From Paraburkholderia sp. (GTDB taxonomy: Bacteria > Pseudomonadota > Gammaproteobacteria > Burkholderiales > Burkholderiaceae), in assembly GCF_026225065.1 (NCBI RefSeq), contig NZ_JAMFSB010000079.1, positions 1-53,336 on the forward strand: a stretch of 53,336 nucleotides of DNA, given 5' to 3'. The notes beneath the pieces were generated by a model. It ran no database searches and had not been told where the DNA came from. It saw only the letters and a list, made by a program, of their open reading frames with translations. Positions 14,889 to 22,886 of the stretch are shown here, piece after piece. Positions within the stretch are counted from its first letter, which is position 1, and the number at the start of each line of letters is the position of its first letter. A program made the position numbers and the translations under genes.

Positions 14889-15155
<267 letters not shown>

Positions 15156-15208
15156 TCAGGCCGGCGCGAGGCCGGCTTTCGTTCCGTCAAACCGCTAGTT
15201 TACGCCGG

Positions 15209-15721
15209 TTAAGACTGGCCTGCCTGGCCGTCGTCCTGATCCAGCAAAGCCACTTTGTCCTTCAGCCATTTTTCCACGGACGGGAACACAAACTTGCTGA
15301 CGTCACCGCCCAGTTGCGCGATCTCGCGCACGATGGTGCCGGAGATGAACTGATACTGGTCCGACGGCGTCATGAACATGGTTTCGACGTCGGGCAACAG
15401 ATAGCGGTTCATGCCGGCCATCTGGAACTCGTATTCGAAGTCCGACACTGCGCGCAGGCCGCGCACGATCACCCGGGCGTTGTTGGTGCGGACGAAATCC
15501 TTCAATAGGCCCTTGAAGCTCATTACCTGCACATTCGGGTAATGACCGAGGACTTCGTGAGCGATATCGAGGCGCTCTTCGAGGGTGAAGAACGGCTTCT
15601 TGTTGCGGCTGTCGGCGACGCCTACCACCAGCGTGTCGAAAATGCTCGACGCGCGCCGAACGAGGTCTTCGTGACCGCGCGTCAGCGGGTCGAACGTACC
15701 CGGGTACACGGCGACTACCAT
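15209..15721 (-). CDS. coaD: Phosphopantetheine adenylyltransferase
   Basis: '[21 protein letters not shown]' and 'SSGTIVREI'-like motif '[16 protein letters not shown]'. Confidence 0.95.
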
Positions 15722-15834
15722 GTGACTTCTCCTCTCTTCAGACAAATGGGCACGTCAAGCACGCCCGCAGGACGCGTTTGCCGCCGGTCGCGCGCGTAAC
15801 GGCTAGCCGTCCGGCGCTTGTTTTGGAACGCGCA

Positions 15835-16449
15835 TTATTCCTCATTTTCGCGCTGCAGCAAATGATAGTGGACCACCCCGGCCTTCCCCTGCCGAACGAT
15901 GGTCCACCCCGCCAGCGCGGGCGTCTGTGCGACGTCGAGCGCATCGCCGGCTTCCACATAGAGGAATCCTTCGGCGCTGACAAGCGGCGTCGCCAGTTCC
16001 AGCGCGCGGCCCAGCAGGTCGGAGCCGAACGGCGGATCGAGGAACACCACGTCGAACGAACCGGGTGCGAGGCTCGCCGCAAGGCGCAATGCATCCGCTT
16101 CGGCAACTTCTATCGTGTTGGGCGCGAGGCGAGCCTGATTGGCACGCAATTGCCCGGCCGCCTTACCGTGGCGCTCGACCATCAAGACCCGCGCCGCGCC
16201 GCGCGAAGCCGCCTCGAAGCCCAGCGCCCCGCTGCCGGCGAACAGATCGAGGCACCGCTGGCCGTCGAGGCGCTGGCCGAGCCAGTTAAAGAGCGTTTCG
16301 CGCACGCGGTCGGGCGTGGGCCGCAGGCCGTCGAGGTCGAGGACGGGCAGCGGTGTGCGCTTCCAGTCGCCGCCAATGATGCGGATGGCGTGCGGCTTGC
16401 CGCGATTAGACGGAGCGCTGGACGCGCGGGAGGCAGGAGGACGGGGCAT
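15835..16449 (-). CDS. rsmD: 16S rRNA (guanine966-N2)-methyltransferase RsmD
   Basis: 'RIIGGDWKRTPLPV', 'RPTPDRVRETLFNWL', 'DLFAGSGALGFEA', 'FLDPPF'. Confidence 0.93.
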   Translation of the reverse strand: MPRPPASRASSAPSNRGKPHAIRIIGGDWKRTPLPVLDLDGLRPTPDRVRETLFNWLGQRLDGQRCLDLFAGSGALGFEAASRGAARVLMVERHGKAAGQLRANQARLAPNTIEVAEADALRLAASLAPGSFDVVFLDPPFGSDLLGRALELATPLVSAEGFLYVEAGDALDVAQTPALAGWTIVRQGKAGVVHYHLLQRENEE

Positions 16450-16697
16450 GCAGATTCGAACGGTTAAACGGTTAGGCGATTGCCCACAGGCGCGTTTGCG
16501 CTGGGGTTGGAGAGGCAACGTTACCACAGGGTGAAAAGCATCTCACCTTGGCCGGACGGCTAATGCGGCCAGATCGGACATGCCTGATAAAATAAGCGCC
16601 TTCCAGCGCCTTGCATCCCGCATTGCCACGCTGCCTGCCGCTGCCACCGGGCCCAACCGGTTGCGCGCACCGGCGCTCGCTCTCACCACGCCAGAAC

Positions 16698-17882
16698 ATG
16701 TTCAGCTTTTTCAAACGATTCAAGGGTTCGAAAGACCCCGACGCGACGCCCGAGGAATCGCAGACGGCGCAGGAAGTCGTCACGCCGCAAGCCGAAGCCG
16801 TCGCCGCACGGCCGGCCGTGCCTGCTGCACCAACCGCCCCGCGGCCGGTCAGCAGCATTGGCGCGCAACCTGCATCCGTGAGCGACGTCGAGCCGCTTGC
16901 GCCTCTGCAAGCGGCTCCTGAAGAGGAAACCGGGCTCGAAACCGTAGAGATCGTGCCGCCGCCGTTGCCCGAAGCCGCGGCCAAGAGGTCTTGGCTCACG
17001 CGCCTGAAAACCGGTCTCTCGAAAACCAGTTCGAACCTGACGGGCATCTTCATCAACGCCAAGATCGACGATGACCTTTACGAGGAGCTCGAAACCGCCC
17101 TGCTCATGTCCGACGCAGGCGTCGAGGCCACCGAATTCCTGCTCGAATCGCTGCGTGAAAAAGTCCGCACCGATCGCCTGACCGACCCGCAACAGGTCAA
17201 GGCCGCGCTGCGCACGCTGTTGATCGACCTGCTCAAACCGCTCGAAAAATCCCTGATGCTCGGCCGCGCCCAGCCGCTCGTGATGATGATCGCGGGAGTG
17301 AACGGCGCCGGCAAAACCACCAGCATCGGCAAGCTCGCGAAGCATCTGCAGAGCTTCGACCAATCGGTGCTGCTCGCCGCTGGCGACACCTTTCGCGCCG
17401 CCGCGCGCGAACAGCTTGCGATCTGGGGCGAACGCAACAATGTGACGGTCGTCTCGCAGGAAAGCGGCGATCCGGCCGCGGTCATCTTCGATGCGGTCGG
17501 CGCAGCCCGCGCGCGCAAGATCGACGTGCTCATGGCCGACACGGCCGGACGTCTGCCGACCCAGTTGCATCTGATGGAAGAACTGCGCAAGGTCAAGCGC
17601 GTGATCGGCAAGGCGATGGACAGCGCCCCGCACGAAGTGCTGCTCGTGATCGACGCCAACACCGGTCAGAACGCGCTCACGCAGGTAAAAGCGTTCGACG
17701 ATGCGCTCGGACTCACCGGTCTGATCGTCACCAAGCTCGACGGCACGGCCAAAGGCGGCATTCTCGCGGCCATTGCGCGGCAGCGGCCGGTCCCGGTGTA
17801 TTTCATCGGCGTGGGCGAGAAGGTCGAGGACTTGCAGCCGTTCAGCGCCGAGGAGTTTTCGGACGCGTTGCTCGGCAGCTAA
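16698..17882 (+). CDS. ftsY: Signal recognition particle receptor FtsY
   Basis: SRP GTPase motifs '[16 protein letters not shown]', '[12 protein letters not shown]', '[10 protein letters not shown]'; acidic N-terminal region. Confidence 0.95.
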
Positions 17883-20808: not shown

Positions 20809-20838
20809 TTGACACGCTGCGGCCCGCTCGCATACATT
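20809..20838 (+). promoter_or_regulatory. Predicted sigma-70 promoter for the leuA leader
   Basis: TTGACA (20809-20814), 18-nt spacer, TACATT (20833-20838). Confidence 0.6.
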
Positions 20839-20844
20839 GGACCC

Positions 20845-20919
20845 ATGCGTCACCTTCCGAACACCCTCCGAATTACCTCTGGCCGCCTAGCGCGGCCCCT
20901 ATCGCTACGTCTAGCGTAA
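20845..20919 (+). CDS. Putative leucine leader peptide MRHLPNTLRITSGRLARPLSLRLA
   Basis: 24-aa ORF upstream of leuA with 6 Leu codons, 4 of them CTA clustered at the 3' end; overlaps a long inverted repeat. Confidence 0.7.
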   Translation: MRHLPNTLRITSGRLARPLSLRLA

Positions 20920-20938
20920 GCCAGGCGTAGCGCCGCGC
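20890..20938 (+). promoter_or_regulatory. Leader stem-loop overlapping the Leu codons
   Basis: GCGCGG (20890-20895)/CCGCGC (20933-20938) and CGCTACG (20903-20909)/CGTAGCG (20926-20932). Confidence 0.7.
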
Positions 20939-21039
20939 GTTGGCCGCCCCAGCGGTTCAAGCCCGGTCCTCAAAGTAGTCCCGCAGTTTCCGTTGCACCC
21001 CAAACCGTAGTTCCTTTTACAACCTGTCAGTCGTTTGTG

Positions 21040-21064
21040 TTCGTCCGTTTACCGTTCGGACGAA
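21040..21064 (+). promoter_or_regulatory. Second leader hairpin upstream of leuA
   Basis: TTCGTCCG (21040-21047)/CGGACGAA (21057-21064), 9-nt loop. Confidence 0.65.
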
Positions 21065-21146
21065 TCGCGAAGGTCACATCCGTGGCAGCCCGCCAGCCGC
21101 CCGAGGCCACGCCCCTTCGCATACGACAGAACGAACGAGGCTCATC

Positions 21147-22886
21147 ATGTTGCGCAACCCCGCTGAAAAATACCGACCGTTCCCCGCCGTCCGTTTGACT
21201 GGCCGAAAATGGCCCAGCCGCACGATCCAGCAAGCCCCCATCTGGATGGCCACCGACCTGCGCGACGGCAACCAGTCGCTGATCGAGCCCATGAGCATCG
21301 CGCAGAAGCTTGAGTTCTTCGAGATGCTGGTCAGGATCGGCTTCAACGAAATCGAAGTCGGCTTTCCGTCGGCCTCGCAGACCGACTTCGATTTCGTGCG
21401 CAAGCTGATCGACGAAAAGCGCATTCCCGACGATGTGACGATCCAGGTGCTCGTCCAGTCGCGCGAAGAACTGATCGCGCGCACCTTCGAGGCGCTCGAT
21501 GGCGTGCCGCGCGCGATCGTCCACCTGTACAACGCGATCGCACCGGCGTTCCGCAAGATCGTCTTCAACCAGTCAAAAGACGAAGTGAAGGCGCTCGCGG
21601 TCGAAGGCACGCGGCTGATCAAGCAGTACGCCCAGGCACGGCCGCAGACGCAGTGGACCTACCAGTACTCGCCTGAAACCTTCAGCATGACCGAGCTGCC
21701 GTTCGCCCGCGAGGTGTGCGACGCAGTCGCCCAGACGTGGCGGCCCACGCGCGATCACAAGATGATCGTCAACCTGCCCGCGACCGTCGAAGCAGCCATG
21801 CCGAACGTATACGCCGATCAGATCGAATGGATGGACCGCAATCTCGGCTATAGGGACAGCATCGTGCTGTCGGTGCATCCGCATAACGATCGCGGCACTG
21901 CGGTGGCCGCCGCTGAACTCGCCGTGCTGGCGGGCGCGGATCGCATCGAAGGGTGTCTTTTCGGAAATGGCGAGCGCACCGGCAACGTCGACCTCGTCAC
22001 GCTGGCGATGAATCTTTACACCCAGGGCATCGACCCTGGCCTCGACTTCTCGGATATCGACGCGGTACGCCGCGTCGTGGAGCGCTGCAACCAGTTACCA
22101 GTGCATCCGCGTCATCCGTATGCGGGCGATCTCGTTTATACGGCATTCTCGGGCTCGCATCAGGACGCGATCCGCAAGGGCTTTGCCCAGCAGACGCCGG
22201 ACGCGGTGTGGGAAGTGCCCTATCTGCCGGTCGACCCGGCCGACGTGGGCCGCAACTACGACGCCGTGATCCGTGTAAATAGCCAGTCCGGCAAAGGCGG
22301 CTCGACGTATCTGCTCGAACGGGGCATGGGCTTCACGCCGCCGCGCCGGGTGCAGATCGAGTTCAGCCACACAGTGCAAGCCACCGCGGATAGCAGCGGC
22401 GCCGAGATGAGCGGCGAGGCGATTTGCGCGTTGTTCGCCCGCGAGTACTTCGAGACCGATGGACCGGCGCAGCGCGTCAATGCGTCGACGGTGCGGTGGG
22501 ACGATCGCGACCTCAATGTGGCGGCGGCGAAGCGGCCGCGTGAGCAGTCCGAGGCGCAAGAGGCGCAGCATGAACCGCACGAGCAACACGCCCGGCGCGT
22601 CGCCGCCGCCCTCGCCACGGCCGCGGGGCAAATGATCGAAGTCACCTCAGTGGAAAGCGCACGGGCCACAGATGGCCGCACGGTAGTGTTCGTGGGCTGC
22701 AGGGTCGGGGAGCAGGCGGTTCGCTTCGGCGTTGGAGTTAGCTCGGAAGCCGCGGCGGCAGTCGTGGATGCTGTTGTCAGCGCAGTGAACCGGACAATCG
22801 GAACCAGCGAGGCAGCCGGGACCAGTGTGGCAGGAGTGGCAAATCCGGCGGTGTGGCAAGAGCCTGACCGCAGAGTGGCGGCCTGA
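21147..22886 (+). CDS. leuA: 2-isopropylmalate synthase (LeuA type 2)
   Basis: '[55 protein letters not shown]'; '[14 protein letters not shown]'. Confidence 0.95.

Follow-up and report, generated by a model that had tools for sequence, protein, structure and literature searches.

A conserved CTA-rich leader ahead of leuA in Burkholderiaceae: a probable leucine attenuator with a leaderless leader peptide

The leuA upstream region and its promoter

The window, meaning the whole stretch of 53,336 nucleotides that was analysed, comes from a Paraburkholderia-like draft genome of 6.4 Mb. About 400 bases separate a ybiB-like gene from leuA, the committed leucine gene, and within them lie a promoter, a short leader ORF and several inverted repeats (Table 1). 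The ORF, MRHLPNTLRITSGRLARPLSLRLA, contains six leucine codons, four of which are CTA, exactly as described in the initial annotation. The expectation expressed there, that CTA would be very rare in this DNA, agrees with the 25 long ORFs of the window, in which 26 of 1,076 leucine codons (2.4%) are CTA. Four CTA codons among six leucine codons would arise by chance with P ~5e-6, an approximate value, as the long ORFs used for the background were picked mechanically. The window has 237 small ORFs that start with ATG, and only the leader ORF carries at least three CTA codons.

The sigma-70 type promoter has the sequence TTGACA-N18-TACATT, as first claimed, and is the one promoter-like site found where 0.1 were expected. 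Counted from the end of the -10 hexamer at 20838, the predicted +1 is 20845 and coincides with the first base of the leader ATG. TTGACA is exact in all 49 related leaders, and the sequence flanking the promoter elements is variable. The distance from the end of the -10 element to the ATG is 6-7 nt in 45 leaders and 8-9 nt in the other four; because it stays between 6 and 9 nt in 49/49, the RNA is predicted to start at or next to the AUG. This spacing argues strongly, on position, for a leaderless ORF with a predicted start site. The pattern TTGACA-N17/18-TANNNT-N5/7-ATG has six matches in the own genome and none with a reversed-pattern control; the other five matches were set aside, since no CTA- or leucine-packed short ORF begins there. 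The main text of a transcription start-site study of Burkholderia cenocepacia (PMC4603805) makes no mention of leuA.

Table 1. Features of the leuA upstream region, in coordinates of the window
Feature	Position	Strand	Remarks
Sigma-70 type promoter, TTGACA-N18-TACATT	20809..20838	+	TTGACA 20809-20814, TACATT 20833-20838
Leader peptide ORF, MRHLPNTLRITSGRLARPLSLRLA	20845..20919	+	24 codons; no room for a Shine-Dalgarno sequence; CTA at 20887, 20899, 20905 and 20911; stop UAA 20917-20919
GAATTAC, near-invariant, inside the leader	20871..20877	+	rare Arg codon CGA overlaps its start
Small hairpin GGCCGC/GCGGCC around the first CTA	20881-20886/20892-20897	+	97% paired, little covariation
Outer extension of helix 1:2, GCGCGG with CCGCGC	20890-20895/20933-20938	+	excludes helix 2:3
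Helix 1:2, CGCTACGTC with GGCGTAGCG	20903-20911/20924-20932	+	
Helix 2:3, GCCGCGC with a strand ending CGGT	20932-20938/20961-20967	+	one mismatch in the window
C-rich, G-poor, poorly structured linker	20968..21029	+	candidate Rho-utilisation region
Hairpin TTCGTCCG/CGGACGAA	21040-21047/21057-21064	+	no U-tract after it
Stem CGTGGC/GCCACG	21081..21111	+	apparently common to Oxalobacteraceae and Alcaligenaceae leaders
leuA Shine-Dalgarno, CGAGG	21136..21140	+	
leuA, 2-isopropylmalate synthase	21147..22886	+	TIGR00970 type

Conservation and related leaders

Similarity to leuA was used to gather related loci in named genomes, and the leader peptide itself to gather them in 120 family genomes; conservation was assessed on 49 Burkholderiaceae leuA leaders, 46 of them distinct. 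For conservation of the peptide, gathering loci with the peptide itself is circular; the leuA-collected set agrees, with the leader present in all of the loci L001-L010 and L022. The ATG and the reading frame are kept in 49/49 leaders, with the ORF intact and ending in TAA. CTA occupies codons -7 and -5, counted from the stop, in 49/49 each, and codon -3 in 46/49, with CTG in the remainder; codon -11 is CTA in 42/49, and the seven other leaders comprise six from a clade with a 3-nt deletion, whose CTA lies at -10, and a single leader with CTG. Indels within the ORF are multiples of three, the 22 distinct ungapped sequences contain no in-frame stop, the other frames are not stop-free, and synonymous single-base differences are commonest in the frame of the leader ORF. 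The C-terminal half of the peptide is well conserved. The leader is a real, conserved element. The initial annotation had named a lack of conservation of the ORF or its CTA codons in relatives as evidence against its reading; both are kept in the 49 loci, and the alignment of leuA upstream regions that it proposed brings out, within the Burkholderiaceae, conserved CTA codons and two helices that covary in a shuffle test.

Other leucine-rich leaders precede leuA elsewhere in the Burkholderiales, a wide family that the initial annotation had not noted. In an order-wide sample of 60 leuA genes, a leucine-rich small uORF was found in 23, compared with 8 in shuffles and 3 on the reverse strand, and by the same promoter-ATG rule 10 of these 23 are leaderless vs 1 expected. 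Distribution was judged by this leuA-anchored sampling; genome-wide covariance-model scans, with about a dozen first-look candidates scored per genome, returned few loci and say little on distribution.

Most Oxalobacteraceae leaders (e.g. L015, L021, L036 and L045) carry two tandem ORFs. The first is leucine-rich, has leucines at its end and is leaderless by its promoter, since TTGACA and a -10 element directly precede the ATG; the second is led by a Shine-Dalgarno sequence and ends in LPIGCRA or similar. In Alcaligenaceae leaders the LPIGCRA ORF stands alone. The end of this ORF pairs with a downstream GYYCGGCAGCC (97% paired, 10 two-sided changes, above all shuffles), and the stem is crossed by a GTGGY/GCCAC pairing, near invariant in 32 related leaders, that may either make a pseudoknot or be an alternative pairing. 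The ORF, the covarying stem and the crossing pairing occur together in L014, L017, L049 and other Alcaligenaceae/Bordetella leaders.

Paralogues of leuA have a third leader type, SLLLARSTGLGLLLRAS; the second leuA of the own genome carries the same type, with promoter-like sequence directly 5' of the leader ATG. The leader of this second leuA (L123, G000:C67, gene at 15125-16783 on the minus strand) reads MFAAQTLLSLLLLARSTGLGLLLRASRI, is rich in CTA and is apparently leaderless as well. A further short leader type, exemplified by MQYLSLALLLMSHGQRQ and MSLTSLALLLVLTGHRR, is found at L155, L160, L165, L167 and L168, from other Burkholderiales families.

Competing helices and the C-rich linker

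The leader folds better than its shuffles (z -3.8, 0/100). Both inverted repeats originally noted at the CTA cluster are present, GCGCGG with CCGCGC as the outer extension of helix 1:2 and CGCTACG (20903-20909) with CGTAGCG (20926-20932) within that helix, whose 5' arm includes or abuts CTA codons and whose loop holds the stop codon. In a column-pair scan of the alignment, CGCTACGAC/GGCGTAGCG ranked first and GCCGC/GCGGT second. Helix 1:2 is paired in 96.4% of cells, its 26 two-sided changes being confined to a single pair (A-U, U-A, U-G, C-G), and helix 2:3, which the initial annotation had not seen, is 95.8% paired with two-sided changes in four pairs; the covariation of each exceeds that of 500/500 shuffles, which take no account of relatedness among the leaders. 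For helix 2:3 it is also seen on a longer alignment. The outer arm of 1:2 is 92.5% paired and shows G-U variation only, with no covariation. Compensatory change in 1:2 and 2:3 is good evidence, though short of conclusive.

The two helices meet at 20932, and the outer 1:2 arm is in direct competition with 2:3. The minimum-energy fold of the window leader is the long 1:2 hairpin, and in that of the Burkholderia seminalis leader three hairpins follow one another and 2:3 is formed, so both foldings of the switch are predicted among relatives. The small hairpin around the first CTA, an alternative to the outer 1:2 extension, is present in the B. seminalis fold. GAATTAC pairs with GTAGTTC (21007) in the minimum-energy fold of the window; the idea that GAATTAC pairs with GYAGY repeats, which are described below, was rejected, as the pairing appears in the energy fold but is not supported by covariation and has uncompensated variants such as that of L006.

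The second hairpin recorded further down the leader, TTCGTCCG/CGGACGAA, was located and looks real but, at 83.9% paired, is not above shuffles on the alignment used, in which rows L108-L117 are difficult to place at this hairpin. Across 21040-21111, the window sequence TTACCGTTCGG...CGTGGCAGC is similar to CTACCGATCGG...CGTGGCAG in leaders of the LPIGCRA type, and this stretch is perhaps the relic of a lost second ORF.

No terminator-like site was found in the window leader, and the terminators detected in relatives, in 11/49 leaders, are weak and non-conserved; the original remark that no U-tract follows the hairpins holds both in the window and across relatives. Nor was any strand 4 or terminator pairing with segment 3 found for 2:3 to prevent, which counts against the attenuator model given below. 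In the linker, C exceeds G in 46/46 relatives, with means of 39% C and 14% G. It also bears GYAGY repeats (GCAGTTCC-like), another feature new to this analysis, which lie at 20975, 20983 and 21007 in the window and occur in 2-4 copies per linker among the 46 relatives, with a mean of 3.0 vs 0.12 in shuffles; in most of the listed examples, 8-9 nt separate the first two copies. Rho prefers C-rich, G-poor, open RNA. Because the linker is C-rich, G-poor and open, Rho is the favoured output, and, provided that attenuation is right, composition, a weak predictor, gives Rho-dependent output about an even chance.

The absence of a conserved intrinsic terminator would also suit translational attenuation, in which a leucine-sensing leader gates the leuA ribosome-binding site, as proposed for the actinobacterial LEU element, whose leucine codons pair with the leuA Shine-Dalgarno sequence (PMC1262725). 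In many species GGTCCTC could pair with GAGG of the Shine-Dalgarno, but CCTC is lost in several, e.g. L109, the column-pair scan brings out no covarying helix that involves the leuA Shine-Dalgarno, and the distance from the leader to leuA varies by ~100 nt, all of which makes gating of translation an unlikely explanation.

A probable attenuator and its place among known systems

The leader is probably a ribosome-mediated, leucine-responsive cis attenuator of leuA with a leaderless leader peptide. This reading is favoured because the ORF and its CTA codons are conserved, CTA is rare nearby, the leaderless geometry holds in 49/49 leaders and helices 1:2 and 2:3 overlap, and because other leucine-rich, often leaderless leaders precede leuA elsewhere. 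The leucine attenuator proposed in the initial annotation thus gains support from the retained frame and CTA codons, the promoter-ATG spacing and the covarying, competing helices; the outer 1:2 arm without covariation and the confinement of two-sided changes in 1:2 to one pair count against it.

In the model, we infer the leucine response, the start site, the direction of the switch and the Rho step. RNA polymerase would start at, or no more than 1-2 bases from, the leader AUG, and a ribosome would load at the RNA 5' end without a Shine-Dalgarno sequence. With ample charged Leu-tRNA, the ribosome would clear the CTA codons, finish at the UAA and depart, whereupon segments 1 and 2 would pair as the long hairpin 20890-20938; with 1:2 closed, segment 3 and the C-rich linker would lie open and transcription would end early, most likely via Rho. 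Under leucine scarcity, a ribosome stalled on a CTA codon would mask segment 1, so that 2:3 could form and transcription of leuA would go on.

A small peptide or small RNA could instead act in trans, with control of leuA secondary, as for peTrpL/rnTrpL of Sinorhizobium meliloti, a leaderless attenuator peptide with reported trans roles (PMC7298713). The conserved C-terminal half of the peptide would fit such a role; however, conservation lies partly at the RNA level (the helices and the near-invariant GAATTAC), the element is always found before leuA, and the peptide types of other families share leucine codons, not sequence, so that a primary role in trans appears highly improbable. Least probable of all is that a 5' UTR structure or a binding site for protein has been conserved, with the ORF incidental to it and CTA held by base pairing alone, for although the CTA cluster lies partly in helix arms and the GYAGY repeats resemble a binding array, the CTA at 20899 (codon -7) is invariant in 49/49 outside the covarying helices, the frame is kept and the promoter-ATG spacing is fixed.

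The attenuator reading can be compared with several known systems. Leader-peptide attenuation is textbook biology in enterobacteria, where leuL of leuABCD encodes a leader peptide with clustered leucine codons, including the rare CUA, within competing helices. The present leader shares with leuL the clustered leucine codons, including CUA, before leuA and the competing RNA helices; it differs in having no Rfam match, no U-tract terminator, a predicted leaderless start and a leuA of the TIGR00970 type. In Rho-dependent leader-peptide attenuators, such as the enteric mgt leaders, a short ORF gates early termination and a U-tract terminator is not obligatory; both points would be shared here, with Rho a candidate from composition, whereas the signal and the gene are different.

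Leaderless leader-peptide attenuators are known to us from few cases, namely S. meliloti trpL and the mycobacterial cysteine ORFs. In S. meliloti trpL, the ATG that opens an amino-acid-rich leader peptide ORF is also the 5' end of the transcript (PMC7298713), an arrangement that promoter geometry predicts for the present leader; tryptophan, a transcription terminator hairpin and an alphaproteobacterial host are trpL's own, and no sequence relation between the two leaders was seen. Polycysteine leaderless short ORFs of mycobacteria attenuate downstream genes, as reported by Canestrari et al. 2020 (cited in PMC9031893); these too are leaderless short ORFs rich in the sensed amino acid, but concern cysteine and mycobacteria. 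The actinobacterial LEU element resembles the present leader in that leuA is preceded by a uORF containing leucine codons and by RNA that can adopt alternative structures, with the leucine codon-Shine-Dalgarno pairing as the base stem of a pseudoknot fold (PMC1262725), a pairing that, by the covariation scan, is not conserved here.

No Rfam family matched the window leader or twelve related loci at gathering or relaxed thresholds, a weak sX14 match (13 bits, E 4.6) being attributed to chance. A literature search found no description of a leuA leader in Burkholderiales, and an earlier prediction is possible in comparative studies of proteobacterial attenuators. The leader is probably a leucine sensor of a kind uncatalogued in Rfam or in the papers searched. 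More tentatively, and with some doubt, it may represent an order-wide Burkholderiales class of leucine attenuators with leaderless peptides, in which access of Rho is switched via a repeat-bearing C-rich segment with no intrinsic terminator, including the two-ORF version of the Oxalobacteraceae. If a leaderless leucine attenuator is indeed widespread in the Burkholderiales, placing the sensor ORF at the first base of the transcript would be a recurring design, the control of leuA would be explained across a large bacterial group with soil, plant-associated and clinical members, and a tractable system would be at hand for attenuation without an intrinsic terminator.
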